DNA of 64,000 bases, taken from positions 5,890,001 to 5,954,000 of the forward strand of contig NZ_CP027707.1 of assembly GCF_003850345.1 (NCBI RefSeq), given 5' to 3'. Position 1 is the first letter of the stretch, and each line of letters begins with the position of its first letter. Positions 7,818 through 43,756 of this stretch are shown one piece after another. The notes below the pieces were generated by a model, which worked only from the letters and a program-made list of their open reading frames with translations, searched no databases and was not told the DNA's origin. This DNA is from Pseudomonas chlororaphis subsp. piscium. GTDB taxonomy: Bacteria; Pseudomonadota; Gammaproteobacteria; Pseudomonadales; Pseudomonadaceae. Made by a program: the position numbers and the translations under genes.

Positions 7818-8837
<1,020 letters not shown>

Positions 8838-26036: not shown

Positions 26037-26040
26037 GACT

Positions 26041-29000: not shown

Positions 29001-29622
29001 GGGCGACTTCGATGTGCTGATCACCGACTGCAACATGCCGGAAATGGACGGCTACGCCCTCACCCGCAACGTCCGCGCCGCGGAACAGGCGCGCGGCCTG
29101 CCAAGGCTGCCGATCATCGGCTACACCGCCCGGGCCCTGGCCGATGAAAAGCAGCGTTGCCAGGCGGCGGGCATGGACGACCTGATGGTCAAGCCCATCG
29201 TCCTCGAACGCCTGCGGGAAATACTCGGCGGGCTATCCAATGCATCCCTCAAAGCCCCCCTCACGCCTCCCCTCGCCCCAGCGCCTGACGAGGAAGCCGC
29301 CGCATCGTTCGACCTGGCCTACCTGGAGGGTTTCCAGAACGATCCGCAGCTCAAGGGACGCTTGTTCCAGGAGCTGCGCCGCAACCTGGAACAGGAGCGC
29401 GAGCTGCTGAGCGCCCCTCTGCCCGACACACCGGACTTCCTCGAACAGTGGGTCCACCGGGTCAGCGGGCTGGCCTGCACCGTCGATTCGCCAGCGTTGA
29501 TGCGGGCCTGCCTCGACCTGCAACTCGCGGCCCGCCAGGGTGCGCAGAATCTGGATGACCAACGTGAAGCCGTGCTGGCCGTCATCGAACGCATGCTGCG
29601 CGATATCGAACGCCACGGCTGA
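26041..29622 (+). CDS. BvgS/RocS-type unorthodox hybrid sensor kinase
   Basis: A 1193-residue membrane kinase. In order it has a signal/first membrane segment, two periplasmic solute-binding-protein family 3 domains (about residues 55-290 and 300-515), a membrane span (about 523-541, QTAALVLVLVLLSLHW), a PAS domain (about 560-690), HisKA with SHELRTPL (His near 708), HATPase with NDTGVGIAEE and GGSGLGLSICKQL, a receiver with ITDCNMPEMDGY (Asp near 995), and a C-terminal HPt with WVHRVSGLA (His near 1139). The multistep His-Asp-His path should end on the adjacent NarL-type regulator. The two periplasmic domains probably bind a small ligand, unknown here. Start at 26041 gives the signal-like N-terminus. 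It faces the LPMO and secretion genes downstream. Confidence 0.92.
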   Translation: MPNPLAGLSRLTLWITLMLTSVASLGATEPEPAPLSLATLMALRQTLPPRPLRVAEVSASNERPEPRGNVVLNQITNDYLEHISQFLELPIQRVPYPTVDTAIAALTTGDIDLMPRATEYERKQPGFIYSMPYLDNEPIIVGRIADKDLPPDLEGKRVLVPAYYVQAETVAKAYPKAELIVIKSIVEGLQRLADGEADALIGDQLRSNFYMRSLANLKLQNKYVADLPAMGFSFAARGHEENLVTLINASLKTVTRERKQEILQHWERSPWLFAPTDSFALNSAEDSWLKRLPSLNLIARQIPNYLYRKADGQWAGLAFNVLRSLADDYQLQLNIIDSQSPEIDQRRLENDEAQIALSLAATPALQKSLLFSDGFGTEYWAFVTRKGASSPSSLAALGGRRLALQAGHPLQSLLASRYPTIELVLTDNYDQAVQLVEQGMVDAMLNSAADARQMTNPGLRVGKQFQAQPDPLVFAVSAKHPELLSILNKLLYSLKNSDGNQDRISVLARPATKGSLWDYLPSWVWQTAALVLVLVLLSLHWNWRLRIQIRKRRAAQNQLKDQLAFQFALLNGLPIPLYVRDLQGRLSTCNHAYEQFFGQSLDEIRGTTPQEQGISPPALALELEEQHQRLLDNRQSQFLDSVIEVSGQTHHIYQWLVPFYTALGKQQGLLGGWIDISVRKHLENKLLEAQQQALDASAAKSQFLATMSHELRTPLNAMVGLLELETSGSSAPSQNLSIAQQSAQSMIDLIGNILDLDKAETGQMELAPSPTALAPLLESCLELFAVQAREKHLELKLEHNLAPRRHYPVDAMRLTQILHNLLSNALKFTAHGQVELKVRELDSAPRQSRLIFQVNDTGVGIAEELQSQIFAPYQQAYAEIAHQHGGSGLGLSICKQLVELMGGNIRLDSAPGLGCRISFELLLPWQPVVEDEAPQAVQGPVAVTALHVLIVDDVSTNGLVLEQQLLRLGHRGTYVGSGKAALQAWEQGDFDVLITDCNMPEMDGYALTRNVRAAEQARGLPRLPIIGYTARALADEKQRCQAAGMDDLMVKPIVLERLREILGGLSNASLKAPLTPPLAPAPDEEAAASFDLAYLEGFQNDPQLKGRLFQELRRNLEQERELLSAPLPDTPDFLEQWVHRVSGLACTVDSPALMRACLDLQLAARQGAQNLDDQREAVLAVIERMLRDIERHG

Positions 29623-29877
29623 CCTGTTCCGGACAACCCTGCGCACAGCATCCCGGCCCTGGGCGACGCCCAGGCCGGCGCCCTGAAACATCTTGTTCCA
29701 CTCCCTCCTCGCGCCTTTCGTACTCGTCTCATACAAGCCCGCAAGCCTGCTCGGCATCCTAGGAGCCCTTCGTTACCGGGCACTGCCAGCCACGGGCAAC
29801 CCTGGCCGCGTCATGCAGCGGCCGGCATCGAAGACCTCAAGGAAGTCCACTTCATATACTTAAATCAAGGTGATTCG

Positions 29878-31368
29878 ATGCTTCATAACAACCGCGCCAC
29901 CGCCATGCGCAAGCTGCCGCTGGCCATCACCCTCGGCCTGGCTTCGCTGGCCAGCCAACAAGCCTTCGCCCACGGTTACATCGAAAGTCCGAAGTCCCGG
30001 GCCTTCATGTGCTCCGCGAACGGCGGCAACCTCAACCGCGATTGCGGCCCCGTCACTTACGAACCGCAAAGTGTCGAGTACTCGCCATCGGTCCAGCATC
30101 ACTACCCCAAGGATTACTGCTCGGGCGACTTCACCAAATGCGGCCCGGCGAACGGCACCATCCCGGCGGGCGGCATCACCAGCTTCTCCCAGCTCAACGA
30201 GCAGACGGCGACCCGCTGGCAGAAAACCACAATCAAGCCGGGCATGAATGAATTCACCTGGTACTACTCCGCCGGTCACGCCAGCGCCTACTACCAGTTC
30301 TATATCACCAAGAAAGACTGGAACCCGAACCAGCCGCTGACCCGCGACTCCTTCGAGATGACCCCGCTGCTCGATGAAAAAGCGAACGGCGCGCGTCCGC
30401 CAGCCGGTGGCAGGACCAAGCACAAGGTCAACATTCCTGCCGATCGCAGCGGTTACCACGTGATCCTGGCGACCTGGAAAATCGCCGACACCGCCGCCAC
30501 CTTCTATCAGGCCATCGACGTCAACATCGACAACGATGGCGCGCCGATTCCTGACTGGAAGATCCTCGGCGCGGTGCAGCCTGAACAGCTGCGTGTCGGC
30601 GACAAGGTCAGCACCCGTGTGTTCACCAACGCCGGCGAACAGCAGAACCGCCAGACCCGCCTGAGCATCGAGACCACTGAGCAGGCCCAGGCCAACACCT
30701 GGCCGTACCTGTTGGCGCAGCAGGTCAACAAGGCCAATGCCGGCTACATGATGGGCGAGCTCAACGCCAATAATGAAGTCGTGCCCAACTACGGCAAGAA
30801 CACCATGTATGCCAAGAACAACAGCGACGTGGTACGCGTGGAAATCCAGAAAGAGCAGCCGAGCATTCCTGGCGAGCTGAAGCTTTCCGGCCTGCAGGCC
30901 GAGTACCCCCTGAAGGACAACGCCACCGACCTGCACTTCAATGCCATTGCCCAGGGCGGCAAGTACACCATCGCCTCCACCGTGTTCAACGGCAAAGGCG
31001 AAAGCATCGCCCACCAGCAGGCGGAAGCCGGCAACAACACCCCGCACTTCTCCATCGCGCTGCGTAACGTCAGCGAAGGCGACTATGACGTGGTGGTCGT
31101 GGCCAAGCCGGAAAAAGGCGAGCAGCTGCAACAAAGCCAGCGCATCACCCTGAAAGCCGAAGAAGTGGGCGGCGGCGACTACGACTTCGTCTTCCCCAAA
31201 GGCCTGACCGGCTACAAGGCCGGCACCAAGGTTTTGGCCAAGGACGGCAATGTCTATGAGTGCAAGCCGTTCCCTTACAGCGGCTACTGCATCCAGTGGA
31301 ACGCTGGCGCCACTCAGTACGAGCCTGGCGTTGGCAGCAACTGGAAGGACGCCTGGATTCGCAAGTAA
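29878..31368 (+). CDS. GbpA-like chitin-binding lytic polysaccharide monooxygenase (AA10)
   Basis: A secreted copper enzyme that cleaves crystalline chitin oxidatively and binds GlcNAc surfaces. A 31-residue signal peptide ends QQAFA, leaving His32 (HGYIESP) as the N-terminal copper ligand; the second His is in YYSAGHASAYYQF (near residue 134). The 496-residue protein continues with GbpA-type middle domains (about 215-410) and a C-terminal chitin-binding module rich in aromatics (YKAGTKVLAKDGNVYECK ... WNAGATQYEPG). Length is close to Vibrio GbpA and longer than P. aeruginosa CbpD. AAGGTG precedes the ATG by about six bases. It is the gene immediately upstream of the type II secretion operon and is its probable substrate. 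Confidence 0.93.
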   Translation: MLHNNRATAMRKLPLAITLGLASLASQQAFAHGYIESPKSRAFMCSANGGNLNRDCGPVTYEPQSVEYSPSVQHHYPKDYCSGDFTKCGPANGTIPAGGITSFSQLNEQTATRWQKTTIKPGMNEFTWYYSAGHASAYYQFYITKKDWNPNQPLTRDSFEMTPLLDEKANGARPPAGGRTKHKVNIPADRSGYHVILATWKIADTAATFYQAIDVNIDNDGAPIPDWKILGAVQPEQLRVGDKVSTRVFTNAGEQQNRQTRLSIETTEQAQANTWPYLLAQQVNKANAGYMMGELNANNEVVPNYGKNTMYAKNNSDVVRVEIQKEQPSIPGELKLSGLQAEYPLKDNATDLHFNAIAQGGKYTIASTVFNGKGESIAHQQAEAGNNTPHFSIALRNVSEGDYDVVVVAKPEKGEQLQQSQRITLKAEEVGGGDYDFVFPKGLTGYKAGTKVLAKDGNVYECKPFPYSGYCIQWNAGATQYEPGVGSNWKDAWIRK

Positions 31369-31389
31369 TCCATAACCTGACCAACCGCA

Positions 31390-31411
31390 GCGTGGTGCCT
31401 CGGCACCGCGT
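31390..31411 (+). other. Hairpin between LPMO gene and cytochrome b561 gene
   Basis: CGTGGTGCC and GGCACCGCG pair around a two-base loop, with no T-run. It could dampen read-through or protect the 3' end of the LPMO message, producing more LPMO than secretion machinery from one transcript. Confidence 0.4.
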
Positions 31412-31431
31412 TGCGGACCTTGGGAATCGAC

Positions 31432-31953
31432 ATGAATCACCCTCACTACTCCAGACCGCGCAGGCTGCTGCACTGGCTGTTCGCCGCCGTTGTCCTGTGG
31501 GCCACGATCAGCGGCTATGCCAGCGCGCTGTTGCAGCCACCCTGCTCGGTCCAACAGGCGATCGCCTTTATCAACGTCTCGCTGACCACCCTGCTGGTGC
31601 CGCTGTTCGTCCTGCGGCTGTTCTACCTCGTGCGTCATCCCGCTCCGCCGGCCCCTGCCCATCAGAGCGCGGGCGAACGCCGCCTGGTGCATGCCGGGCA
31701 CGGCGCATTGCTGGTCACCCTCGGTACCGTGCTGTTCAGCGGTGTGCTGATGATGTCGCGCCCGATCGATCTGTTCGGCCTGCAGCTGCCGCAACCCTTG
31801 CAGGACCCGGCGGCCATCACCTTTTTCGAAGAGATTCACCACTACAGCTGCATGGCCCTGGCCCTGCTGGTGGCCGGCCATATCGCCGCGGTGATCCTCC
31901 ACCAACTGCGCGGGCATGGCGTGCTCAGACGCATGCTGCCCAAACGCCCATGA
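31432..31953 (+). CDS. Cytochrome b561-family membrane protein
   Basis: A 173-residue inner-membrane dihaem cytochrome of the bacterial b561/CybB type. Four membrane spans are visible, with histidines placed for haem ligation in RRLLHWLFAA, VHAGHGALL, EEIHHYSC and AGHIAAVILH. Such proteins move electrons from quinol across or into the periplasm. The start at 31432 has GGGA nearby. The stop overlaps the gspC start as ATGA, and the LPMO gene ends 63 bases before, so it lies inside the LPMO-secretion unit. A role in supplying electrons to the copper monooxygenase is inferred only from position. Confidence 0.85.
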   Translation: MNHPHYSRPRRLLHWLFAAVVLWATISGYASALLQPPCSVQQAIAFINVSLTTLLVPLFVLRLFYLVRHPAPPAPAHQSAGERRLVHAGHGALLVTLGTVLFSGVLMMSRPIDLFGLQLPQPLQDPAAITFFEEIHHYSCMALALLVAGHIAAVILHQLRGHGVLRRMLPKRP

Positions 31954-32501
31954 AGACGATGTTCCCATGGCGCCCGCGCGGCTCCGGCCAACGCTACCTG
32001 CTCCCCGTCAGCCTGGTCGCCCTCGGCCTCTGGCTGACCTGGTTGAGCCTCGACAGCTGGACCTACCGGCAAGTGCTGGCGGGCCAGCCGGTGCCGGCTG
32101 CGGTACCGAGTGCCAGCGCCGAAAAGCTGCTGCCCGCGCCCCTGGACGATCACAACATCGCCAGGGTCTTCGGCGCCGTGCCGGTCGAATTCGACAGCGC
32201 GCAGGCCAGCCTGCCGCTGGTCCTGCTCGCCAGCCTGCTGGGCAACCAGCCCGAGCAATCCAGGGCCCTGATCCAGTACGCCGACAGCCGGGCCTTCTAC
32301 TCCCCGGGCGAACGCCTGCCCGACGGCACGCTGCTCAAGAGCGTCAGCGCCGATCAGGTGGTGGTGCTGCGCAACGGCCGTGAACAGAACCTGCTGCTGC
32401 CCGGGCGCCAGATGCGCCTGCTCAGCCCCCAGACAACCCCACCGGAGGTCGCCGACCGAAAAGCCACGGCCCTTCTGCGAGCGATAGAGAACACACCATG
32501 A
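31950..32501 (+). CDS. gspC: Type II secretion protein GspC (short form)
   Basis: The inner-membrane clamp that contacts the secretin periplasmic domain. The 183-residue protein has one N-terminal membrane span (about residues 14-32, LLPVSLVALGLWLTWLSL) and a homology-region domain (about 60-140: LVLLASLLGNQ, SRAFYSPGERLPDGTLLKSVSADQVVVLRNGREQ). It stops soon after this domain and lacks the PDZ or coiled-coil tail found in PulC-type proteins. It overlaps the cytochrome and gspD genes by four bases each. Confidence 0.85.
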   Translation: MKTMFPWRPRGSGQRYLLPVSLVALGLWLTWLSLDSWTYRQVLAGQPVPAAVPSASAEKLLPAPLDDHNIARVFGAVPVEFDSAQASLPLVLLASLLGNQPEQSRALIQYADSRAFYSPGERLPDGTLLKSVSADQVVVLRNGREQNLLLPGRQMRLLSPQTTPPEVADRKATALLRAIENTP

Positions 32502-34399
32502 AACTGTCCAAGATCGCGGGCGCCGTGCTCAGCCTCGGCCTCCTGCTGAATGCCCTGCCCAGTAGCGCGGCCCTGACCACCCAGCGCCTGTGGACATTGA
32601 ACATGAAGGACGCCGAACTGCGCGACCTGGCCAGCGAGGTCGGGGAAATCACCGGCAAGACCCTGGTGGTCGATGCCCGGCTGCAAGGCAAGGTCAGCGT
32701 GCAATCGTCCAAAGCCCTGGACAAGGAAGGTATTTACTCGCTGTTTCTCAGCGTGCTGCGCAGCCAGGGTTTCGTCGCCCTGGACCAGGGCGACCGGGTG
32801 CTGATCATGCCGGCGGCGGAAGCCAAGACCAAATCCAGCGAGCAATCGGGCGATGAGTTCGTGACCAAGGTCCTGGACCTGCGCAACGCCAACGCCGCGG
32901 AAATCTCCGGGGTGGTCCGCCCGCTGGTGAGCGACGATGCCTATGTCGCGCCCTCGGCCAGCTCCAATGCCCTGGTGGTGTCCGACAGCGCCAGCAACGT
33001 CGAGCGCATCCGCCAGGTGGTCAGCGAACTGGACCAGGCCGGCAACCGCTCGTTCAGTACCGTGGCCCTCAAGCACGCCTGGGCCAGCGATGTGGCTCGG
33101 ACCCTGAACGAGAGCATCAGCCAGACGGGCAACGGCCCCAGCGACGCCAAGGCCGTGGGCGACGCCCGCAGCAACCGGGTGATCCTCGCAGGCTCCGCCC
33201 AGGCCCGCCAGCGCATGGCCGATCTGGTCAGGGCCATCGACGTGCCGAGCAATGCCAACGACAGCGCGCGGGTGGTGCGCCTGCACCACAGCGATGCCAA
33301 GCAGCTGTCGAAGCTGCTCAACGGCATCGGCAAGCGCCTGGAAGACAGCAACCGCGGTGGTGGCGAAGGCAAGGGCGGCGGTAGCTCGATACTGGTGAGC
33401 GCCGACGAAAGCCAGAACGCCCTGGTGCTGATGGCCGACCCGGCGCAACTGAGCATGCTCAATAAAGTCATCACCCAGCTGGACCAGCCACGGGCCCAGG
33501 TGCTGGTGGAAGCGGCCATTGTCGAGGTCAGCGGCGACATCAACGAAGCCCTCGGCGTGCAATGGGCGGCGCGCGCCGGCAACGTCGCCGGCGGCACCAA
33601 TTTCAGCGGCACCGGCCTGTCGATCGGCACCCTGCTGAGCCAGGGCAAGGACAAGAACATCACCCTGCCGGACGGCGCCATCATCGGCATCGGCACGAGC
33701 AATTTCGGCGCGCTGGTCACCGCCCTGTCCAGCGACTCCAAGAACAACCTGCTGTCCACCCCGAGCCTGCTGACCCTGGACAACGAAGCGGCGGAAATCC
33801 TCGTCGGCCAGAACGTGCCGTTCCAGACCGGCTCCTACACCACCGACACCGCCGGCGCCAGCAACCCCTTCACCACCGTGGAACGCCAGGACGTCGGCGT
33901 GACCCTCAAGGTGACGCCGCACATCAACGAGGGCAACACCCTGCGCCTGAAGGTCGAGCAGGAAAGCTCGGAATTGGCCAGCGCCCCGCCCGGCATCACC
34001 ACCAGCGACGTGATCACCAACAAGCGTTCGGTGAAAAGCACCATCCTCGCCGACGACGGCCAGATCATCGTGCTCGGCGGCCTGATCAAGGACAACGTCA
34101 AGACCCAGGTCAGCAAGGTCCCGGTGCTGGGCAGCATTCCCTGGCTCGGCCGGCTGTTCACCAGCACCAAGGACGTCACCGAAAAGACCAACCTGATGGT
34201 GTTCCTGCGGCCGACCCTGGTGCGGGGCAGCGCCGATGCCGTCAACGTCAGCGAGCGCAAGTACAACGACCTGCGCAAGTTGCGCGCCAACGGTGACAGC
34301 CGTAGCGGCCTGGCCTTGCCCGCCGACTCGCGCCAACTGTTCGATGCCGCGCCGCAGGAGGCGACCATCGATATGCGCGCCAACGAGCCACGCCGATGA
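32498..34399 (+). CDS. gspD: Type II secretion secretin GspD
   Basis: The outer-membrane channel of the secretion system. The 633-residue protein has a non-lipoprotein signal peptide (ending PSSA), N-terminal N0-N3 domains (for example [49 protein letters not shown]) and the C-terminal secretin domain with [16 protein letters not shown] and the barrel segment [14 protein letters not shown]. No pilotin gene is seen nearby. It overlaps gspC and gspE by ATGA junctions. Confidence 0.95.
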
Positions 34400-35880
34400 G
34401 CCCGGTCGCGCGCCTGCCCTTTGGTTTCGCCAAGCGCCATGGGGTCCTGCTGGAGCCCTTGGAGAGCGGCCTGCGGCTTTATTGCCGGGCCGACACGCCG
34501 GTGGAAATCCTCGCCGAGATCCGCCGCTGCCATGGCCCGTTGCAGGGCCATCGGATACTCGACGCCGAGGGTTTCACCGAGCGGCTGGCCGAGCAGTATC
34601 GCGACGGGCGCGACGACGCCATGCAGATGGCCGAAGGCCTGGGCGACCAGATCGCCGGCCAGGACGACCTGGCCAGCCTGGCCGAGCAACTGCCGCAGAT
34701 CACCGACCTGCTGGAGCAGGAAGACGACGCACCGATCATTCGCCTGATCAACGCGATCCTCGGCGAGGCGGTCAAGGTCAAGGCGTCGGATATCCACCTG
34801 GAAACCTTCGAGCAGCACCTGTCCGTGCGCCTGCGGGTCGACGGCCTGCTGCGTGAGGTGCTGCGCCCGCGCCGGGAGCTGGCGGGCCTGCTGGTGTCGC
34901 GGATCAAGGTCATGTCCAAGCTCGACATCGCTGAAAAGCGTATCCCCCAGGACGGCCGCATCGCCCTGCGCATCGGCGGCCATGAAGTGGATGTGCGGGT
35001 CTCCACCCTGCCTTCGGCCTACGGCGAGCGGGTGGTGATGCGCCTGCTCGACAAACAGGCCGGGCGCCTGAACCTGGGCCGGCTGGGCATGGCCGAGGCG
35101 ATCCGCGGCAAGCTCGAAGACGCCCTGCTGCGCCCCCACGGCATCCTGCTGGTCACCGGCCCCACCGGTTCCGGCAAGACCACCACGCTGTACGCCGGGC
35201 TCAGCAGCCTGAACAACCAGACCCGCAACATCCTGACCATCGAAGACCCAGTGGAATACCACCTGGCCGGCATCGGCCAGACCCAGGTCAACACCAAGGT
35301 CGACATGACCTTCGCCCGTGGCCTGCGCGCCATCCTGCGCCAGGACCCGGACGTGGTCATGGTCGGCGAGATCCGCGACCGGGAAACCGCCGACATCGCC
35401 GTGCAGGCTTCCCTCACCGGCCACCTGGTGCTGTCCACCCTGCACACCAACAGCGCCATCGGCGCCGTCACCCGCCTGCTGGACATGGGCATCGAGCCCT
35501 TCCTGCTCTGCACCTCGCTGCTCGGCGTGGTCGCCCAGCGCCTGGTGCGGGTGCTCTGCATCGATTGCAAGAGCGCCGCGCCCGCCGATGCCGCGGCCTG
35601 CCAGCAGTTGAACCTCGACCCGCGACAGGCGCCGGTGCTCTACCACCCGGTCGGCTGCCCGGCCTGCCAGCACAGCGGCTATCGCGGCCGCCAGGGCATC
35701 TACGAACTGGTGCTGTTCGACGAACCGCTGCGCCAACTGATCCATGAAGGGGCTGGCGAGGCCGCCTTGACCCACTACGCGCGCCAGCATGCCCACAGCC
35801 TGTTCGCCGACGGCCGGGACAAGGTGCTGCAAGGCGTCACCAGTGTCGAAGAACTGCTACGCGTAACCCGGGAGCACTGA
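34396..35880 (+). CDS. gspE: Type II secretion ATPase GspE
   Basis: The cytoplasmic ATPase that drives pseudopilus assembly. The 494-residue protein has an N-terminal GspE-N domain, Walker [16 protein letters not shown], Asp box TIEDPVEYH, Walker [17 protein letters not shown], the His box [11 protein letters not shown], and a four-cysteine zinc module (CIDCK ... CPACQ, spaced about 45 residues). All catalytic elements are present, so it should be active. Confidence 0.96.
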
Positions 35881-35882
35881 CC

Positions 35883-37097
35883 GTGGCCGCCTACGAATAC
35901 CTCGCGATGTGCAACGCCGGGCGCAAGACCCGCGGCGTGCAGGAAGCCGACAGCGCGCGGCAGGTCCGCCAGCTGCTGCGCGAACGCAATCTGATCGCCC
36001 TGCAGGTCAAGCCGGCCCGCGGGCAAAAGGACCGTTCCGGCGCCGCGCTGACCAGCAGCCAGCGCCTCAGCCCGGCGCAACTGGCCTTGCTGACCCGCCA
36101 GCTGGCGACCCTGGTCCAGGCCTCACTGCCACTGGAAGAAGTGCTGGCCGCCGTCGCCGCACAATGCAGCAAGCGCGCGCAGCAGAGCATGATGCTGGCG
36201 ATCCGTGCGCGAGTGCTGGAAGGCCATGACCTGGCGCGGGCCATGGGCGAATACCCGCGCGCCTTCGCCTCGATGTACCGGGCCACGGTGGCCGCCGGCG
36301 AACGCGCTGGCCACCTGGCCCAGGTGCTGATGCAACTGGCCGACTACACCGAGGCCCGCCACGCCGCCCGCCAGCAGCTGCAACTGGCCATGCTGTACCC
36401 GAGCATCCTGCTGTTGGCGGCCTTCGGCATCGTCGGTTTTCTGCTCAGTTTCGTGGTGCCGGATGTGGTCAAGGTGTTCATCGACAGTGGCCAGCAACTG
36501 CCGGTACTGACCCGCGGCCTGATCGCCACCAGCGACTTCGCCCGAGATTACGGCCTGGTCCTGTTGCTGATACTCGGCAGCCTCGCCACCGGCCTGCGCG
36601 TGGCCCTGCGCAAGCCCGCCCTGGCGATGCGCTGGCATCAGGTCCAGCTGCGCTTGCCGGTGATCGGACGGGTCATCCAGGCCAGCAACAGCACCCGTTT
36701 TGTCAGCACCCTGGCGATTCTCGGGCGCAGCGGCGTGCCGCTTGTTGATGCCCTGGAGATTTCCGCCGAGGTGGTCGCCAACCAGCAGATTCGTACTCGT
36801 ATGAAAGACGTGGCGCGTGCCGTGCGCGAAGGTAGCGGACTGACCCGGGCCCTGGAACAGAGCGGCGATTTCCCGCCGATGATGCTGTACATGATCGCCA
36901 GCGGCGAGCGCTCGGGGGAACTGGACAGCATGCTCGAACGCGCCGCCCACCAGCAGCAGACCCAGCTGTCCAACGGCATCGCCATGCTGGTCGGGCTGTT
37001 CGAGCCGGCGATGCTGGTGTTCATGGGCGCCAGCGTGCTGGTCATCGTCCTGGCGATCCTGATGCCCATTCTCAACCTCAACCAACTCATCACCTGA
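35883..37097 (+). CDS. gspF: Type II secretion inner-membrane protein GspF
   Basis: The polytopic platform protein that couples GspE to the pseudopilus. The 404-residue protein has the two repeated GspF domains and three membrane segments (about 165-190, LLLAAFGIVGFLLSFVV; about 215-235; and the last at 375-395, MLVFMGASVLVIVLAILMPIL). It starts at GTG two bases after the gspE stop, giving tight coupling. Confidence 0.95.
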   Translation: MAAYEYLAMCNAGRKTRGVQEADSARQVRQLLRERNLIALQVKPARGQKDRSGAALTSSQRLSPAQLALLTRQLATLVQASLPLEEVLAAVAAQCSKRAQQSMMLAIRARVLEGHDLARAMGEYPRAFASMYRATVAAGERAGHLAQVLMQLADYTEARHAARQQLQLAMLYPSILLLAAFGIVGFLLSFVVPDVVKVFIDSGQQLPVLTRGLIATSDFARDYGLVLLLILGSLATGLRVALRKPALAMRWHQVQLRLPVIGRVIQASNSTRFVSTLAILGRSGVPLVDALEISAEVVANQQIRTRMKDVARAVREGSGLTRALEQSGDFPPMMLYMIASGERSGELDSMLERAAHQQQTQLSNGIAMLVGLFEPAMLVFMGASVLVIVLAILMPILNLNQLIT

Positions 37098-37109
37098 AGA
37101 GCACACAAC

Positions 37110-37544
37110 ATGCGCAACCCTTCCCGCCAACGCGGCTTCACCCTGATCGAGATCATGGTGGTCGTGGTGATTCTCGGTGTCCTGGCCGCCCTGGTGGTCC
37201 CGCAGATCATGAGCCGTCCGGACCAGGCCAAGGTCACCGCCGCCCGCAGTGACATCAAGGCGGTGGCCACGGCCCTGGAAATCTACAAGCTCGACAACCA
37301 CCACTACCCCTCGACCCAGCAGGGCCTGGAAGCCCTGGTGAAAAAACCGGCCGGCCTGCCGGCGGCCCTCAACTGGAACCCCGACGGCTACCTCAAGCGC
37401 CTGCCCAAGGATCCCTGGGGCAACCCTTACCAGTTCCTCGCCCCGGGTCGCGAAGGCTCGGCCTACGACCTGTACTCCTTCGGTGCCGACGGCCGCAACG
37501 GCGGCGACGGGACCAATGCCGACATCGGCAACTGGGAGCCTTGA
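37110..37544 (+). CDS. gspG: Type II secretion major pseudopilin GspG
   Basis: The main subunit of the periplasmic pseudopilus. The 144-residue protein has a short basic leader ending RQRG and then FTLIEIMVVVVILGVLAALVV, the class III prepilin cleavage signal and helix. The C-terminal part has the calcium-site region GADGRNGGDGTNADIGNW. No prepilin peptidase gene is in the operon, so cleavage must rely on PilD encoded elsewhere. Confidence 0.96.
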   Translation: MRNPSRQRGFTLIEIMVVVVILGVLAALVVPQIMSRPDQAKVTAARSDIKAVATALEIYKLDNHHYPSTQQGLEALVKKPAGLPAALNWNPDGYLKRLPKDPWGNPYQFLAPGREGSAYDLYSFGADGRNGGDGTNADIGNWEP

Positions 37545-37545
37545 A

Positions 37546-38010
37546 GTGCGCAAGCCAATGGCGGGTTTCACCCTGCTGGAGCTGCTGGTGGTCATGGTGA
37601 TCATCGGCTTGCTGGCCGGCATGGTCGGGCTGGTCCAGAGCGACTCGGGCGGGCAGAAGGCCCGGCGCGAGGCCGAGCGCCTGCAGAACCTCATTGGCCT
37701 GCTGCGTGAAGACGCAGTGTTGAACAACATTAACCACGGCCTGCGCCTGGAGCCGGACCATTACACAGTGCTGAGCCTCGACCGCGGCGGCCAGTGGCAG
37801 GCGGACAAGCGCTTCAAGGAGCACCGGCTGCCCGGCGAGCTGCGCCTGAACCTGAAGGATCCACGACCGCAGGGCAAGGAACCACAACTCTGGGTACTGG
37901 CCAACGACCAGATCTCGCCCTTCAGCCTGCTGCTGGAATACCGCCAGCAGCCGCTGCTGTCGCTGTCCAGCGACGGGGTCGAGGAGGTGCGTCTTGCCCC
38001 GGTGCAATGA
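37546..38010 (+). CDS. gspH: Type II secretion minor pseudopilin GspH
   Basis: A minor pseudopilin of 154 residues. The GTG start at 37546 is preferred because GGGAG lies about eight bases upstream inside gspG's end; an ATG at 37558 is the alternative. The leader ends MAG and is followed by FTLLELLVVMVIIGLLAG. The globular part is short with LRLEPDHYTVLSLDRGG. It overlaps the gspI start. Confidence 0.9.
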   Translation: MRKPMAGFTLLELLVVMVIIGLLAGMVGLVQSDSGGQKARREAERLQNLIGLLREDAVLNNINHGLRLEPDHYTVLSLDRGGQWQADKRFKEHRLPGELRLNLKDPRPQGKEPQLWVLANDQISPFSLLLEYRQQPLLSLSSDGVEEVRLAPVQ

Positions 38011-38368
38011 ACAGGCGGGCTTCACCCTGCTGGAAGTGATGGTCGCCCTGGCCATCTTCGCCGTGCTGTCGCTGTCGCTCTACAGCGCCACCGAACACCT
38101 GATCGGCAACAACGGTGGCCTCAGCGAGCGGACCCTGGCGCAATGGCTGGCGGACAACCGCCTGAACGAACTGCGCGCCGGCATGCGCCAGCCCCAGAGC
38201 CAGCGCCAGGAACCGATCCGCTTCGCCGGGCGCGACTGGCTGCTGACCAGCGAAACCGCCGCGGCACCCGACCCGCGCCTGCTGAAGATCGTGCTCGAAG
38301 TCTCCACCGACGCGCCCATGCCGCGGCAACGCGCGCGCCTGGCGGGCTACCTGGAGGCCCGCCCATGA
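37994..38368 (+). CDS. gspI: Type II secretion minor pseudopilin GspI
   Basis: A 124-residue minor pseudopilin with leader MPRCNEQAG and FTLLEVMVALAIFAVLSLSLY. The start is a TTG codon at 37994, chosen because GAGGAGG lies six bases before it and no in-frame ATG occurs closer than the processed helix. The Cys4 in the leader is unremarkable. It overlaps gspH by 17 bases and gspJ by four. GspI nucleates the pseudopilus tip with GspJ and GspK. Confidence 0.9.
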   Translation: MPRCNEQAGFTLLEVMVALAIFAVLSLSLYSATEHLIGNNGGLSERTLAQWLADNRLNELRAGMRQPQSQRQEPIRFAGRDWLLTSETAAAPDPRLLKIVLEVSTDAPMPRQRARLAGYLEARP

Positions 38369-38967
38369 AACGCCGGCAGCAGGGCTTCACCCTGCTCGAA
38401 GTGCTGATCGCCATGGCCCTGTTCAGCCTGCTCGGCCTGGCTTGCTATCAGTTGCTCGAACGCATGATCCATACCGACCAGCGGATTCATCAGCACGAAC
38501 TGCAACTGCGGCGCCTGCAGCGTGCGGTGGGTATCTTCGAGCGTGACCTGACCCAGGCCATCGCCTACCCGGTCAACGGCAGTTCGGCGCGCCAGGCACT
38601 GATCGGCGAGCCCGGGCGCATCCAGCTGGTGCGCGGCGGCTGGAGCAATCCCTTGCAGCAGGCGCGCAATGACCTGCTGCTGGTCACCTATCGCTGGAAC
38701 GACGGCCAATGGCTGCGCGAATACCGCAGCCCGATGGACAGCCCCGACCTGTCCGGCACTGCCGCGCAGCAATTGCTGCTCGATGGTGTCCGGCTCGAAC
38801 GCCTGCGCTACATCGACGACCAGGGTAAGGCCCACTCCAACTGGCCCGTCGGCCAGGCGCCATTGAGCCTGCCCCAGGCCATCGAACTGGAGCTCGACGC
38901 CCCCGGTTATCCCGGCCTGCGGCGGGTGATCCTGCTGCCGGGCTTCAAGGGGCTGGAGCATGGTTAA
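38365..38967 (+). CDS. gspJ: Type II secretion minor pseudopilin GspJ
   Basis: A 200-residue minor pseudopilin, part of the I-J-K tip complex. The leader MKRRQQG precedes FTLLEVLIAMALFSLLGLACY. The C-terminal domain includes FERDLTQAIAYPVNGS and LVTYRWNDGQWLREYRSP typical of GspJ. The ATG overlaps the gspI stop as ATGA. The longer in-frame extension lies within gspI and is not used. Confidence 0.93.
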   Translation: MKRRQQGFTLLEVLIAMALFSLLGLACYQLLERMIHTDQRIHQHELQLRRLQRAVGIFERDLTQAIAYPVNGSSARQALIGEPGRIQLVRGGWSNPLQQARNDLLLVTYRWNDGQWLREYRSPMDSPDLSGTAAQQLLLDGVRLERLRYIDDQGKAHSNWPVGQAPLSLPQAIELELDAPGYPGLRRVILLPGFKGLEHG

Positions 38968-39832
38968 GGCCTGTAGACAACGGGGCATCGCGCTGATCAG
39001 CGTGCTGCTGATCACCTCCCTGGCGACCCTGATCGTCAGCGACATGCTGGCCCGCCAGCGCCTGAGCCTGATCGGCAGTTCCAACCAGCTGTCGCAGCAG
39101 CAACTGTGGCAACTGGCGCTCAGTGGCGAAGCCTGGGCCCGTGGCCAACTGCGCGATGACTGGCGCGATGAACCGGAGCCCAAGCGCGTGCACCTGGGCC
39201 AGCGCTGGGCACAAAACACACCGGTGTTCGACATCGACGGCGGGCGTATCCGCATCCAGCTGCAGGACCTCAGCGCACGCTTCAACCTCGGCACCCTGCG
39301 CACGCCCAACGACCGGATCAGCCGCCTGCGTTATCAACGTCTGTTGCAGGTGCTTGGCCTGCCGCCCCACGACCCCACGCGCTTGCCACCGGTCCGTGGT
39401 TTCGACGGCAAGCCGCTGGCCTGGAACGACAGCAGCGAACTGATGCGCCTGGAGGCCGTCGACACAGCGGTCATGGAGCGCCTGCGGCCCTGGGTCAGAA
39501 CCACGCCTGGGGCCCTGAACCTCAACACCGCCCCGGCCGAACAACTGGCCAGCCTGGGCAAGCTCGACCTGGCCCAGGCCGTCGCCCTGGTGCAGGCACG
39601 CCCCGCCGAAGGCTACAAGACGGTGCAGGAGTTTCTCGACGCCCCCGCGCTGAAACAGCACGAGATCAACAGCCAGGGGCTCGATGTCAGCAGCCGGTAT
39701 TTCCAGGCGGTGCTGGATGTCGAACTGGGCGACCGCCAATTGCGCCTGATCAGCCGCCTGCGCATCGAGCCGGACGGCCAGGTCAGCGTACTGCAGCGCA
39801 CCCTCGCCGCCCCTTCCCGTTTTCCGGAGTAA
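38960..39832 (+). CDS. gspK: Type II secretion minor pseudopilin GspK
   Basis: The large pseudopilin that caps the tip. The 290-residue protein has a leader MVKACRQRG then IALISVLLITSLATLIV; the residue after Gly is Ile rather than Phe, which is usual for GspK, and no Glu occurs at +5, also a GspK hallmark that blocks further polymerisation. A C-terminal helix-hairpin region (LNLNTAPAEQLASLG) supports the assignment. It overlaps gspJ by 8 bases. Confidence 0.93.
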   Translation: MVKACRQRGIALISVLLITSLATLIVSDMLARQRLSLIGSSNQLSQQQLWQLALSGEAWARGQLRDDWRDEPEPKRVHLGQRWAQNTPVFDIDGGRIRIQLQDLSARFNLGTLRTPNDRISRLRYQRLLQVLGLPPHDPTRLPPVRGFDGKPLAWNDSSELMRLEAVDTAVMERLRPWVRTTPGALNLNTAPAEQLASLGKLDLAQAVALVQARPAEGYKTVQEFLDAPALKQHEINSQGLDVSSRYFQAVLDVELGDRQLRLISRLRIEPDGQVSVLQRTLAAPSRFPE

Positions 39833-39836
39833 TCCC

Positions 39837-40919
39837 ATGCAAGCCTGGCTTTACCTCACCACAGTGAATGCGGACGACGACGCGCCCGTCACCTGGTGGC
39901 AAACCGACGGCGAGCCGCTGCACGGTACGCTGCAGCAGGCGGCGGTGCTGGCCGGCCTGCGCCTGACCCTGCTGCTGCCGGCCGAAATCGCCAGCCATCA
40001 CCGCTTCGACGTACCGCCGCGCAGTGGCCGCTGGCTGCAGCAAGCCATCCATTCGGTGCTGGAAGAACGGCTGCTGGACGACCCCGAGCAGTTGCACCTG
40101 GCCCGCGGGCCATTGCAAGCGCGTCGGCACTGCCGCCTGTTCGTCCTGCAACGCCAGTGGCTGGAACAACTATTGGAACGGCTGGCCCGCCATGGCCTGA
40201 CGGCCGAGCGCATTCATGTCGATGCCGACTGCCTGCCGGACAACCAGGCGCTGGCCCTGCGTTGCCACGAGCGCTGGCTGATCGGCGGGGCCTGCCAGCA
40301 ACGCCTGGCGCTCGACGACCAGGCCCTCGAAGAGCTGGCCCCGCTGCTACCCGACAACCTGCAACGCAGTGAGGAAACACCTTGGCCGCTATTGGCCCGG
40401 GGCAGCGGGCAGGCCATCGACCTGCGCCAGGGCGCCTTCGCCCTGCGCAGCCCGACGCGTACGCCATGGCGGGCGCTGCTGGCGATCCTGTTCATCGCCT
40501 GCGGCGCTCAAGTGGCACAGGACCTGGGCCATCGCTGGCTGCTGCAACACAAGACCGCCCAGGTGACCGAGGCCAGCCTGGAACTCTGGCGCCAGCGTTT
40601 TCCCGACGAGCCGCGGGTGATCGACCTCGCCCGCCAGGTCCAGGCCCGTGCCCAGCAAGCCGGCCAGCCCCAGCAAAGCCTGGCGCGCCGGCTCGACAGC
40701 CTGGCCAGCCAATGGACCAACAGCGACGGCGGCGATACGCGGATCCGCCGGCTGGACTACCAACAGGCGCAAGGCTGGACCCTGCAAGTCAACGCGCCGG
40801 ATTTCTTCACCCTCGAACGCCTGCGCGAAGCCCTCGCGCAGCAGGGCGTGAACGTCCAGGCCGACTCGGCCGTGCTCGCCCCCGACGGGGTCAGCGCCCG
40901 CCTGAAAATCACGGACTAA
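39837..40919 (+). CDS. gspL: Type II secretion inner-membrane protein GspL
   Basis: The bitopic protein that binds GspE on the cytoplasmic side. The 360-residue protein has a large actin-like cytoplasmic N-terminal domain (about 1-200), one membrane span (about 205-222, RALLAILFIACGAQVAQ) and a periplasmic ferredoxin-like domain (about 290-360). It begins four bases after the gspK stop and is followed by gspM after three bases. Confidence 0.9.
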   Translation: MQAWLYLTTVNADDDAPVTWWQTDGEPLHGTLQQAAVLAGLRLTLLLPAEIASHHRFDVPPRSGRWLQQAIHSVLEERLLDDPEQLHLARGPLQARRHCRLFVLQRQWLEQLLERLARHGLTAERIHVDADCLPDNQALALRCHERWLIGGACQQRLALDDQALEELAPLLPDNLQRSEETPWPLLARGSGQAIDLRQGAFALRSPTRTPWRALLAILFIACGAQVAQDLGHRWLLQHKTAQVTEASLELWRQRFPDEPRVIDLARQVQARAQQAGQPQQSLARRLDSLASQWTNSDGGDTRIRRLDYQQAQGWTLQVNAPDFFTLERLREALAQQGVNVQADSAVLAPDGVSARLKITD

Positions 40920-40922
40920 GCC

Positions 40923-41393
40923 ATGACCACCCTTTTCAATCCTTACTCGAACCGCTGGCAGCAGCTACCGGCCCGCGATCGCCTGGCCCTGAAGTTGCTC
41001 AGCCTGTTTCTGACAGTGACGCTGTTCTGGACCCTGCTCTGGAGCCCTCAGCGCCAAGCTTTGCAGCAGGCTGAACAGCAGTTCCAGGAGGCCCTGCAGT
41101 TGCAAACCGATCTGCTCAAGCTCCCTTCGTCCAGCAACGCTCGCGGTCCGCAGGCCAACAGCCGCACCCTGGCCGGCCTGATCACCGCCAGCACGGCCGC
41201 GGCCAACCTGAGCATCGAACGCATGGACAGCGAACAGGCCGGACGCCTCAATCTCAACCTGGGCGGCTCGCTGCAAGACCTGCTGACCTGGCTGGACGAA
41301 GTGGAAAACCAGGGCGTCAACCTGGTGTCGCTGCAGTTGGAAGTCGACCCTCAGGCCCTGGTCCAGGCGCGCCTGACCCTGGAGTCGAACTGA
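40923..41393 (+). CDS. gspM: Type II secretion inner-membrane protein GspM
   Basis: The GspL partner of 156 residues, with one N-terminal membrane span (about 24-42, LLSLFLTVTLFWTLLW), a coiled-coil segment rich in Gln/Glu (QQAEQQFQEALQLQTD) and a ferredoxin-like C-terminal domain containing LQDLLTWLDEVENQGVNLVSLQLE. It is the last gene of the operon; no gspN or peptidase gene follows. Confidence 0.9.
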   Translation: MTTLFNPYSNRWQQLPARDRLALKLLSLFLTVTLFWTLLWSPQRQALQQAEQQFQEALQLQTDLLKLPSSSNARGPQANSRTLAGLITASTAAANLSIERMDSEQAGRLNLNLGGSLQDLLTWLDEVENQGVNLVSLQLEVDPQALVQARLTLESN

Positions 41394-41406: not shown

Positions 41407-42123
41407 TCAGCGAGCGGGCTCCTCATCGACCCGCACAGTGCCCTGCAGGCGCGGGCCCCAATCCTCGACCGCCGCCTGCTCGACCCGCCGCTCCAGGGTC
41501 CGGCGCCACGACGGCACCAACGGCAGCTCCAGGCACAGACGAATCTCCTCCAGCGCCACCTCACGGGAAAACAGCACCGCGCTCAAGCGCGACAGCGGCC
41601 ACTGCTCGAAAGGGCGCTCGACCTGCTGCAACACATCCCCGGCGCTCAGACTGCCCGCCTCCAACACCCGGTAGTACCAACCGGTGCGTCCGCTCTGCTG
41701 GACCCGTAGCGACATGTCTTTCACGGCAAAGCGGTCATTGAGTTTCCAGCACGGCATGCGTCCCTGGGACACCTCCAGCAACACGCTGCCGACCCGGACA
41801 CGATCGCCCAGGCAGACGTTCTGCTCGGTCCAGCCGTGGCTGCTGAAATTCTCGCCAAAGGCACCCGGTTGCTCCAGCAACGCGTGCGGCCCCAACTCGG
41901 CGGCCCAGGCGGCGTAATGCTCGCGGGGGTAGTGATGAATGGCTTTTTCCGTGCCGCCATGCACCCGCAGGTCGCCCTGCTCGTCTTCCAGCAGGCCCAG
42001 CGGACCGATCTGCAGGCTGCCGGTGCGCGGGGTCTTGGCGATCGCGCTCATCGACTCCGGGCGGCTATAGGCCACGGCGCGGCCGGTCAACAGGGCATCG
42101 AGGGTTATACGCTCAGGGGTCAT
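41407..42123 (-). CDS. MOSC-domain protein, YiiM-like
   Basis: A 238-residue MOSC-domain protein. The domain core is visible as LRVHGGTEKAIHHYPREHY, PGAFGENFSSHGWTE, VCLGDRVRVGSVLLEVSQGRMPCWKL (the conserved Cys) and GRTGWYYRVLEAG, followed by a C-terminal 3-alpha-type segment. MOSC proteins bind molybdenum cofactor or transfer sulfur; YiiM-type proteins reduce N-hydroxylated bases such as 6-hydroxylaminopurine. The start at 42123 lies just after the MarR stop, so the two are co-transcribed; an ATG at 42144 inside the MarR gene is possible. Confidence 0.88.
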   Translation of the reverse strand: MTPERITLDALLTGRAVAYSRPESMSAIAKTPRTGSLQIGPLGLLEDEQGDLRVHGGTEKAIHHYPREHYAAWAAELGPHALLEQPGAFGENFSSHGWTEQNVCLGDRVRVGSVLLEVSQGRMPCWKLNDRFAVKDMSLRVQQSGRTGWYYRVLEAGSLSAGDVLQQVERPFEQWPLSRLSAVLFSREVALEEIRLCLELPLVPSWRRTLERRVEQAAVEDWGPRLQGTVRVDEEPAR

Positions 42124-42127
42124 TACC

Positions 42128-42688
42128 TTACTCCATGGTTTCATCGGCGAACTGATGTTCCCGGCAGATCAACTCAATGTCGGCAGGCGCCAGCGGCTCT
42201 TCGGTCAGGCCGCAGAAAGGCCCGCCCGCGACTTGCTGGTGAAAGCGGCAGGTCTTGCACAGGCCGAAGCTCGGCACGTCCTGGGTGCGCTGCACGTTGC
42301 GCAGCAGTTCGCCGAGCAAGTGCTCCAGCTCCTTGGCTTGCCCACCCATGCGTTGCGCGGCGGTATCGAGGAACGCCGGCGGCATCACCGCCGCCAGCAG
42401 GGTCTTGGCCTGCTCGGTCAGCAGCAGGTGCACGCTGCGCTTGTCCCGGGCGTCCTGGCTTTTGCTGATCAGGCCCTTGGCTTCCAGCGCCTTGAGCGAC
42501 TGCGACACCGTGCCCTTGGTCAGGCCCAGGTAATCAGCCACCGCCAGCGGTGTATTGGAGTAGCCGTTGCAGCGCGCCAGATACAGCAGCGCGCTCAACT
42601 GGATCGGCTGGATATCCGCCAGCAGCGGGTGCTCGCGAAACCAGACGCGGGTCAGGCTGGTAAGCCTTTCAAGCAAATCGAACAGCAC
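42128..42688 (-). CDS. MarR-family regulator with C-terminal cysteine motif
   Basis: A 186-residue winged-helix regulator. The MarR DNA-binding domain spans about 20-110 (LSALLYLARC, LGLTKGTVSQSLKALEAKGLI, wing with DARDKRSVHLLLT). Unlike plain MarR proteins it has a 50-residue tail with LCKTCRFHQQ and GPFCGL, three cysteines and a His that could bind metal or sense redox. The first Cys also occurs at about residue 40 (YLARCNG). It is divergent from a thioredoxin-like gene, with palindromes between, so it probably represses itself and that operon. Confidence 0.88.
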   Translation of the reverse strand: MLFDLLERLTSLTRVWFREHPLLADIQPIQLSALLYLARCNGYSNTPLAVADYLGLTKGTVSQSLKALEAKGLISKSQDARDKRSVHLLLTEQAKTLLAAVMPPAFLDTAAQRMGGQAKELEHLLGELLRNVQRTQDVPSFGLCKTCRFHQQVAGGPFCGLTEEPLAPADIELICREHQFADETME

Positions 42689-42707
42689 AGGGGCATTTTC
42701 CGGATCA

Positions 42708-42727
42708 ATACTTGCGATAAATAGTAT
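42708..42727. promoter_or_regulatory. Inverted repeat ATACT-N10-AGTAT near MarR start
   Basis: ATACT (42708-42712) and AGTAT (42723-42727) form an imperfect operator-like pair 20 bases before the MarR gene. The AGTATCG half-site recurs in the perfect palindrome at 42778, so both may bind the MarR protein. Confidence 0.4.
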
Positions 42728-42777
42728 CGAATAAAAACTATATTGACAAAGGGCAAAGGCAATGAAAATCTAAATGC

Positions 42778-42794
42778 AGTATCGATCCGATACT
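42778..42794. promoter_or_regulatory. Perfect palindrome AGTATCG-ATC-CGATACT
   Basis: A 17-bp palindrome with 7-bp arms lies 18 bases before the thioredoxin-like start and downstream of a TTGACA (42743-42748) -35-like hexamer. A repressor bound here would block initiation. The neighbouring MarR gene encodes the likely regulator. Confidence 0.6.
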
Positions 42795-42812
42795 TTTATT
42801 GGAGACTCACCC

Positions 42813-43043
42813 ATGACACGCGCTCGTTACTACCACGCTGGTTGCCCGGTTTGCGTCGAGACGGAACAGACCCTGCTGGAACTGCTGGACCCGCAAATCC
42901 AAGTGGAAATCGTCCACCTCGGCCAGGCGCCCGCGCGAATCGCCGAGGCCGAAGCCGCCGGCGTCAAATCGGTGCCGGCCCTGGTGGTCGCGGACAAGGT
43001 CCTGCACCTGAACTTCGGTGCGGCCCTGGCCGACCTCAAGTAG
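42813..43043 (+). CDS. Small thioredoxin-like protein with CPVC motif
   Basis: A 76-residue protein with the redox motif GCPVCVETEQ near residue 10 and a cis-Pro loop region VKSVPALVVADK near residue 50. It is shorter than ordinary thioredoxin and resembles glutaredoxin-like proteins without the C-terminal helix. It should be cytosolic. Ribosome site TTGGAG precedes the ATG. It is the first gene of a three-gene run with DUF2024 and a Rho antiterminator and is divergent from the MarR gene with the CxxC tail. Confidence 0.85.
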   Translation: MTRARYYHAGCPVCVETEQTLLELLDPQIQVEIVHLGQAPARIAEAEAAGVKSVPALVVADKVLHLNFGAALADLK

Positions 43044-43108
43044 ATCCGCTCGCCAGCGCACTCCTGACGAGGCGCTGGCGCCCTCTTTTCTCGACGGATG
43101 AAACCGCC

Positions 43109-43405
43109 ATGAACGTGAAAGTCTTCGACACCCATGTGCGCACCCGCGCAGGTCACTACCTGCACTTCGACGTGCTGACCGAAACCCACGACGCCGCCCT
43201 CGCCCGGCAATACGCCTTTGCCTGGCTGGACAGCCTGGGCGTGCGGGAAAGCGATATCTCGCAGAACGAATGTCGCTTCTGTCACAGCCAGATCGGCGAT
43301 CCACGGGTGATGCAAGGCATCGCTCGCCAAGGCTATTTCATTATCCCGCTGCAAGGTTTCGCGACAGCGGGCTTCGAGGCGACAGGCCTGGAGGTGAGCG
43401 GATGA
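43109..43405 (+). CDS. DUF2024 family protein
   Basis: A 98-residue protein of unknown function. It begins MNVKVFDTHVRTRAG, typical of DUF2024, and ends with a cysteine motif NECRFCHSQIG and RQGYFIIPLQGF. The CxxC-H pattern could bind metal or react with thiols. It lies 65 bases after the thioredoxin-like gene and overlaps the Rho antiterminator start as ATGA. Membrane segments are absent. Confidence 0.85.
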   Translation: MNVKVFDTHVRTRAGHYLHFDVLTETHDAALARQYAFAWLDSLGVRESDISQNECRFCHSQIGDPRVMQGIARQGYFIIPLQGFATAGFEATGLEVSG

Positions 43406-43680
43406 ATGCCTATAAACCACTGGACTGCGACCTGCACGACTACCTGGAAATCGCCTGCCTGCATGGCTACCGGCTGCTGGTGGAACAGATCGATGGCAGC
43501 CAGTTCGAGGCGCTCGGCAAGACCACCCGCACCAACACCAGCGGCGAAGAATTCTTCTGCCTGGAGGGCGCCGAAGGTCCGCTCGAAATACGCCTCGACC
43601 AGTTGCTGGCGATTACCCCGCTGGACGCCAACCGCAGCTTCGGGCGTATCCAGCTGGCCAGGCAACAGGGCTCGATCTGA
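43402..43680 (+). CDS. Rho-binding antiterminator (ROF/YaeO family)
   Basis: A 92-residue protein of the Rof family, which binds the Rho primary RNA-binding site and blocks termination. The family signature MNAYKPLDCDLHDYLEIACLHG is present, followed by an Sm-like barrel with IRLDQLLAITPLD. It overlaps the DUF2024 gene, so it is translated from the same message. A terminator follows. Confidence 0.88.
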   Translation: MNAYKPLDCDLHDYLEIACLHGYRLLVEQIDGSQFEALGKTTRTNTSGEEFFCLEGAEGPLEIRLDQLLAITPLDANRSFGRIQLARQQGSI

Positions 43681-43704
43681 CTCGGCGAGCACCTTTGCCA
43701 AGGG

Positions 43705-43742: not shown

Positions 43743-43756
43743 CTCACGGCATGCGC

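Follow-up and report, generated by a model that had tools for sequence, protein, structure and literature searches.

We analyzed a window of 64,000 nucleotides, positions 5890001–5954000 of contig NZ_CP027707.1, the single contig (7.07 Mb) of the Pseudomonas chlororaphis subsp. piscium genome. In it, a gene for a lytic polysaccharide monooxygenase (LPMO) is followed by a gene for a cytochrome b561-like protein (b561) and by gspC to gspM of a type II secretion system (T2SS). By the sequences of its genes, the locus belongs to a type already described, the Txc-type type II secretion loci. With slightly better than even confidence, we interpret it as a Txc-type secretion unit for a GbpA/CbpE-type chitin LPMO that carries an optional accessory quinone-linked cytochrome. 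Direct observation covers the gene content, the orthology and gene order, the recurrence of b561 and its frequent absence, a changed heme ligand position, and a hairpin after the LPMO stop codon. The linkage of b561 to T2SS loci exporting GbpA-type proteins was published in 2012, with no role assigned to the cytochrome; it can now be described as optional, as odd in its heme site, and as lying on the machine side of the hairpin. The subfamily marked by Asn in place of a heme-ligand His and the hairpin are new here and are the parts that deserve the attention of specialists.

The block at 29878–41393 is real gene for gene, and the order of GbpA-like LPMO, b561, and gspC to gspM in the original prediction was borne out by open reading frames and Pfam/NCBIfam profiles, all on the + strand. 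Pfam T2SS models matched gspC–G and gspI–M, and gspH was matched by the NCBIfam gspH model. The unit begins upstream of the LPMO gene, with a response regulator and a hybrid sensor kinase (25368–29622) that belong to it. Orthologs of all 15 genes of the unit were found in the same order in Pseudomonas aeruginosa PA7 (P. paraeruginosa; locus L004), with identities of 56% for b561 and 44–83% for the gsp genes (the other values are given in Table 1). The prediction is supported on the LPMO, which is of the GbpA/CbpE type among AA10 proteins, and on the locus, since T2SS loci of this sort export such an enzyme.

The LPMO matched PF03067 (expectation value (E) 3.1e-40) and the NCBIfam GbpA equivalog above its cut-off. 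Its architecture comprises a signal sequence to residue 31 (read from the sequence), GbpA domains 2 and 3, and a C-terminal GbpA-like segment. The match to CBP21 (2bem) starts at query residue 32, aligned with chain residue 1; residue 32 is a His and would be the first residue of the predicted mature protein. H134 aligns with a GbpA histidine that we take to be the second brace residue. As judged from its sequence, the protein is an AA10 LPMO with a PF03067 domain and a histidine brace that includes the N-terminal His left by the predicted cleavage. LPMOs of this kind act outside the cell, where they need reducing again and again, and how bacterial LPMOs obtain electrons and copper is still poorly understood.

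Linkage of b561 to LPMO and gsp genes

The co-occurrence of the three components was surveyed in a genus sample of 199 Pseudomonas genomes, in which GbpA-type LPMOs were called at E 1e-40 and a b561 match above 80 bits was taken as strong. A GbpA-type LPMO was present in 48 of the 199 genomes and was followed by a gsp operon in 46 of these 48. At the 46 LPMO–gsp loci, b561 lay between the LPMO gene and gspC in 28, after gspM in one, and as a remnant in one, and none was present in the stretch in 16. Among the 17 genomes whose LPMO–gsp locus has no intact b561, 16 had no other b561 match at E 1e-12. Strong b561 matches were found in 30 of the 48 LPMO genomes and in 19 of the 151 other genomes. 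Wherever b561 stood beside a gsp operon, an LPMO was present (29/29), and b561 with gsp genes but with no LPMO, the case named in the original prediction as refuting it, occurred in none of the loci seen, either here or in the contig scan described below. Weak b561 matches (50–60 bits) in seven genomes (G039, G043, G073, G084, G163, G177, and G194) and a weak second match in G176 were not counted as members of the subfamily; of these eight matches, the neighborhood survey takes in three, all from the group of seven genomes. A nearby contig end hides the upstream side of the unlinked b561 in G197 (L078).

A contig scan for b561 relatives, which overlaps the genus sample, yielded 31 loci from 30 genomes. 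A gsp operon was present in 20 of these loci and an LPMO in all 20. The LPMO gene adjoins b561 in 15 of them, and in the other five (four Yersinia and one Pantoea) the gsp genes lie between the two, which are about 12 kb apart on the same contig. Of the other 11 loci, one from Chromobacterium (L029) has an LPMO–b561 pair in a stretch free of gsp genes, and 10 have neither an LPMO nor gsp genes; AA10 matches are missing altogether from seven of the 30 genomes. The association of b561, LPMO, and gsp genes recurs in Pseudomonas, Yersinia, Pantoea, and Endozoicomonas under different gene orders: LPMO–b561–gspC to gspM in Pseudomonas, b561–gsp(C)D to gspM–LPMO in Yersinia and Pantoea, and LPMO–b561 beside divergent gsp genes in Endozoicomonas. 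A draw of 321 genomes from across the class contained a subfamily b561 in three and AA10 in seven, both counts including the window genome and at most 11 b561 candidates per genome being scored. Apart from the window genome, only G484 has both genes, at a distance of about 41 kb, whereas a b561 with no AA10 occurs in G442. These counts are too sparse to weigh, and class-wide co-occurrence outside the genus was set aside.

Several further arrangements were seen. Two tandem GbpA-type LPMO genes precede the unit at L005, L064/L119, and L105, with no b561 at L064. In the record of L113 (Yersinia massiliensis), the LPMO, which lies beyond the gsp genes, looks broken, as it matches in two separate pieces. 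In G139 and G150 (L066/L118 and L067/L117), a GbpA-type LPMO has neither gsp genes nor b561 in the fetched stretches, and the LPMO of G150 is 64% identical to that of the window.

In a quick GspE tree of 62 loci (45 with b561 and 17 without), the presence or absence of b561 required 13 changes, at least eight of them forced by supported branches; shuffles gave a mean of 15.2 changes, and about 50 of 500 were as low as 13. In the b561 tree, which was built without the remnant L072 and the CybB row, the copies linked to an LPMO or T2SS were clustered (11 changes versus a shuffled mean of 28.5), a clustering that near-copies inflate. The cytochrome had been described as locked into the secretion operon, a wording not supported by 16 of 46 LPMO–gsp loci with no b561, one with a remnant, and at least eight forced gains or losses.

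An alternative that we hold to be possible, if rather less probable than our preferred interpretation, is that b561 works in the envelope as a redox protein of its own, with no functional tie to the LPMO or the T2SS, and either occupies a favored insertion site or is inherited along with the cluster. In the 36–42% LPMO group, which includes many of the genus genomes, the unit lies between gltD–hemE and a pair of genes for a major facilitator superfamily (MFS) transporter and a LysR-type protein; some genomes have the LPMO and gsp genes with no b561 at this site, and others have b561 alone. The latter arrangement (gltBD–hemE, b561, MFS–LysR) was found at seven genus loci (L032, L033, L039, L043, L048, L050, and L051), and the b561 sequence of L028 is identical to that of L048. 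At L041, the hemE–MFS site holds an intact b561 (about 7800–8900) flanked by apparent LPMO and gspM remnants, as in a decayed unit. Other unlinked contexts also fit an independent protein. At L034–L038, L040, L047, and L053, an Asn-type b561 stands beside a conserved protein with no Pfam match and an amino acid permease, and all eight genomes have no AA10 match. The neighbors of unlinked b561 copies gave no partner: f5 (244 residues) has no Pfam match, and f14 and f20 look like spurious frames by eye. A preferred insertion site is also among the options in the cited passages of the 2012 review of Yersinia T2SSs (PMC3521999). However, the trio stays together under the different gene orders of Pseudomonas, Yersinia/Pantoea, and Endozoicomonas, and the linked copies cluster on the b561 tree, albeit with a contribution from near-copies.

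Several points nevertheless weigh against an accessory role for b561 in the secretion unit. No AA10 match at all was found in 14 of the 19 strong-b561 genomes that lack a GbpA-type LPMO. The ratio of nonsynonymous to synonymous substitutions (dN/dS) in five pairs of unlinked b561 genes was about 0.14–0.24, as computed on stop-to-stop frames that include some codons 5′ of the true start. Two of these pairs come from genomes with no AA10 (dN and dS of 0.124/0.754 for L050/L051 and 0.042/0.304 for L034/L035), and in a third, L032/L033 (0.084/0.354), an AA10 gene lies elsewhere in both genomes. Because of these 14 genomes and because dN is well below dS, b561 has, or had, another use; its persistence in genomes with no AA10 match also speaks against the self-contained unit that had been proposed. 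Furthermore, b561 is less conserved between the window and PA7 than the LPMO and eight of the 11 gsp genes. Any action of b561 on the LPMO or the exporter is hypothetical, and secretion of the window's own LPMO is a prediction.

The heme site of the b561 protein

The closest named relative of the window b561 is from P. chlororaphis (89% identity). The AlphaFold2 model has four helices (mean pLDDT 91.2) and superimposes on the Escherichia coli superoxide oxidase CybB (5oc0) with a TM score of 0.85 at 24% identity. In an alignment of 90 rows (78 distinct sequences, CybB numbering), the position of CybB H45 is an Asn in 90/90 rows and 78/78 distinct sequences, corresponding to N48 of the window b561. 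Rows L001–L031 were retrieved by a pattern that fixes this Asn and are no proof of its conservation alone; the genus matches were not so selected. The CybB histidines H13, H87, H137, H151, and H158 are retained in 89–90 of the 90 rows (H87 in 90, H151 in 89, and H158 in 90). A His occupies the H45 position in all seven PF01292-type proteins examined outside the subfamily, four of them from the window genome, and, by eye, in 16/16 more distant proteins (P0051–P0066). Further marks of the subfamily are a Trp at the position of A22 (78/78) and a Thr at that of G49 (70/78).

According to the cited passages of PMC11869295, H151 of CybB ligates heme 1, H13 is a heme-1 residue, the quinone is placed toward the cytoplasm together with H87, H151, and H158, and heme 2 toward the periplasm. 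By elimination from these heme-1 assignments, H45 and H137 would hold heme 2. Prokaryotic cytochromes b561 are defined by four His ligands and two hemes together with the PF01292 model and a four-helix fold; the latter two were found, and H45 is replaced. The window b561 is thus a PF01292 protein by model and fold, yet not a standard two-heme b561. Our reading of the sequences is that the periplasmic-side heme may be lost or altered, with the quinone side apparently intact.

These features bear on the idea that b561 is an electron donor, passing quinol electrons over the inner membrane through two hemes so that either the copper of the LPMO or a shuttle is reduced while the enzyme is being exported or beforehand. 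The recurrent adjacency of b561 and LPMO, the Chromobacterium pair with no gsp genes in the stretch, and the conserved quinone-side histidines fit this idea, but we hold it to be unlikely. Conduction to the periplasm through a standard pair of hemes is doubtful because the H45 position is Asn in every distinct sequence, and the Trp and Thr marks lie on the same side of the balance. Since b561 is often absent, with 17 of 46 LPMO–gsp loci lacking an intact copy and nearly all of those genomes lacking another match, and since it is built unlike ordinary family members, it probably does not serve simply as an electron supply for the LPMO, an enzyme that needs repeated reduction outside the cell. 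Of the redox link in the original prediction, the constant presence of an LPMO where b561 adjoins gsp genes stood; the frequent absence of b561, its frequent occurrence with no AA10, and the Asn substitution did not fit. The link is possible but is not favored in that form.

A role as a superoxide oxidase like CybB, clearing superoxide from the copper enzyme or the envelope, is at least as improbable. The shared PF01292 four-helix fold and the quinone-side residues H87, H151, and H158 are consistent with it; H13 and H137 are kept in the window b561 as well. However, H45 is replaced throughout and the superoxide antenna appears to be largely missing: as read from the alignment, none of the five antenna charges (R30, R35, R38, R108, and K134) is retained in the window b561. 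Over the 90 rows, R30 and R35 are mostly replaced, the R108 column is a gap in all 90, and K134 is a Lys in eight, although the R38 position is Lys or Arg in 61 rows and an Arg at window position 110 (66/90 rows) may substitute for R108.

Least probable, and to be given very little credence, is a periplasmic heme site rebuilt to bind copper or an open five-coordinate heme, where electrons from quinol on the cytoplasmic side would reduce copper, or oxygen, facing the periplasm and so help to load or prime the LPMO before export. Besides the Asn in place of His45, the residues in question are Trp23 and Met107 (78/78), Met108 (76/78), His136 (77/78), and Cys140 (44/45 LPMO/T2SS-linked sequences), all of which the CybB topology assigns to the periplasmic half of the helix bundle. 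However, helix counting on the AlphaFold2 model places Met107 and Met108 closer to the surface, by about 10 residues, than N48 and H136, so that they may not share a site (a count that slightly lowered our estimate), and Cys140 also occurs in most unlinked copies (69/78 overall).

The hairpin and the layout of the unit

The hairpin in the LPMO–b561 gap (31369–31431) is separated from the LPMO stop by 16 bases. On the + strand of the window it is not followed by a T-run; T-rich stretches follow the stem in some relatives. A repeated element was rejected as its origin, given one match in the genome. All 42 LPMO–b561 gaps (38 distinct loci) folded more than two standard deviations better than single-base (not dinucleotide) shuffles, with a mean z of −3.7; the same mark was passed by 2/84 control windows in LPMO coding sequence and 1/42 at b561 ends. 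An uninterrupted stem of 9–15 pairs, 6–21 bases after the LPMO stop, was present in 36/42 gaps (33/38 distinct). The form is conserved across loci, and the stem sequences differ widely. Where gspC directly follows the LPMO gene, z was below −2 in 14/18 gaps, a count that excludes L111, whose LPMO lies at the far operon end and leaves no true gap. Because most gaps with no b561 also fold in this way, the hairpin belongs to the LPMO 3′ end and not to b561; its place right after the LPMO stop leaves b561 in the part of the message that encodes the machine. By analogy with other operons that combine a substrate with its machine, its role is likely to be to maintain the substrate message at a higher level than the machine message.

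The predicted overlap of the b561 stop with gspC was confirmed: the TGA (31951–31953) overlaps the gspC ATG as ATGA. With automatically chosen starts, this 4-base overlap occurs in 7/42 loci, and the spacing over the 42 ranges from −44 to +197 bp. The T2SS operon, described as complete, contains the C to M core; no gspN, gspO, or gspS was seen within the block, and the prepilin peptidase was not searched for outside it. No promoter-like site was found in 29500–32600, a result of little weight. The same genome holds three AA10 genes, five PF01292 genes, and two gspD genes above the family cut-off, and the second gspD (L110, a 19-kb stretch) has gsp genes around it and no b561. Genes for a MOSC-domain protein (on the opposite strand), a DUF2024 protein, and an MFS transporter, 3′ of gspM at 41407–44974, were taken as outside the unit.

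Table 1. Coordinates and supporting evidence for the genes and the hairpin of the secretion unit
Feature	Position	Strand	Evidence
Response regulator (receiver (REC) domain and LuxR-type helix-turn-helix), TtsR ortholog	25368–26036	+	Pfam Response_reg/GerE; 64% identity over 94% to the same-place PA7 gene (L004)
Hybrid sensor kinase (SBP_bac_3, PAS, HisKA, HATPase, REC), TtsS ortholog	25993–29622	+	Pfam; 54% identity over 95% to PA7
GbpA/CbpE-type AA10 LPMO, 496 residues	29878–31368	+	PF03067, GbpA_2, GbpA_D3, NCBIfam GbpA equivalog; 72% identity to the CbpE-position gene of PA7
Hairpin in the LPMO–b561 gap	31385–31416	+	Folding; 14-pair uninterrupted stem, 4-base loop
Four-helix cytochrome b561-like protein, Asn-for-His subfamily, 173 residues	31432–31953	+	PF01292, E 2.4e-24; AlphaFold2 model
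gspC	31950–32501	+	PF11356
gspD, secretin	32498–34399	+	PF00263, TIGR02517
gspE, ATPase	34396–35880	+	TIGR02533
gspF	35883–37097	+	TIGR02120
gspG, major pseudopilin	37110–37544	+	TIGR01710
gspH	37546–38010	+	NCBIfam TIGR01708, matched on the longer frame 37483–38010
gspI, start approximate	37994–38368	+	PF02501, TIGR01707
gspJ	38365–38967	+	PF11612, TIGR01711, matched on a longer frame
gspK	38960–39832	+	PF03934
gspL	39837–40919	+	PF05134, PF12693
gspM	40923–41393	+	PF04612

In the interpretation that we prefer, a Txc-type unit with an optional cytochrome, the sensor kinase and regulator would switch on LPMO, b561, and gspC to gspM, as TtsSR control is known from PA7. The LPMO would cross the inner membrane by means of its signal sequence, be cleaved before His32, fold and presumably take up copper in the periplasm, and then be exported by GspC–M, with the hairpin separating the substrate message from the machine message. 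Produced along with the machine, b561 would be an inner-membrane, quinone-reactive protein with an altered or lost periplasmic-side heme site, and it might adjust redox conditions in the envelope as the copper enzyme is exported, being helpful and not required.

Comparison with known secretion systems

The nearest known system is the Txc/CbpE/TtsSR system of PA7. According to the cited passages, Txc (PSPA7_1407–1417) exports CbpE (1419) under the control of the pair 1420–21 (PMC12369383 and PMC8623646), and CbpE is an LPMO homologous to GbpA (PMC7902821). In L004, b561 likewise sits between the cbpE-position gene and the txc genes, and we deduce that it is PSPA7_1418, since the number left over between 1417 and 1419 falls at its place. 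PA7 differs in having an 8-base gap from b561 to gspC, in contrast to the ATGA overlap of the window. It is also another species, one for which CbpE secretion is known.

Yts1/ChiY of Yersinia likewise combines a GbpA-type substrate with a T2SS. The cited passages of the 2012 review (PMC3521999) place Yts1-like clusters also in Erwinia, Serratia, P. aeruginosa, and P. putida, report a linked b-type cytochrome in Yersinia, P. aeruginosa, and P. putida, and leave undecided whether the cytochrome marks an insertion site or has a secretion role. The Yersinia loci (L111–L115) differ from the window in the gene order, b561–gsp(C)D to gspM–LPMO, and in sequence, with the LPMO and gspD about 35% identical between the window and L112.

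Searches of open-licence PMC literature found no paper on this subject naming both lytic polysaccharide monooxygenase and cytochrome b561. Two more distant systems offer partial parallels. In Burkholderia, the gene of the cytochrome b561 LcoA is linked to that of a secreted or periplasmic protein, BcnA; unlike in the window, the partner is a YceI-type lipocalin, the b561 proteins are described with two bis-His hemes, and the cited passages mention no LPMO or T2SS (PMC9113575). In Cellvibrio japonicus, Cbp2D and Cbp2E are candidate redox partners of a secreted bacterial LPMO, with electron-donor roles termed putative in the cited passages (PMC12542752); unlike the window b561, they are carbohydrate-binding, Cbp2D has a c-type cytochrome domain, and neither is an integral b561 protein.

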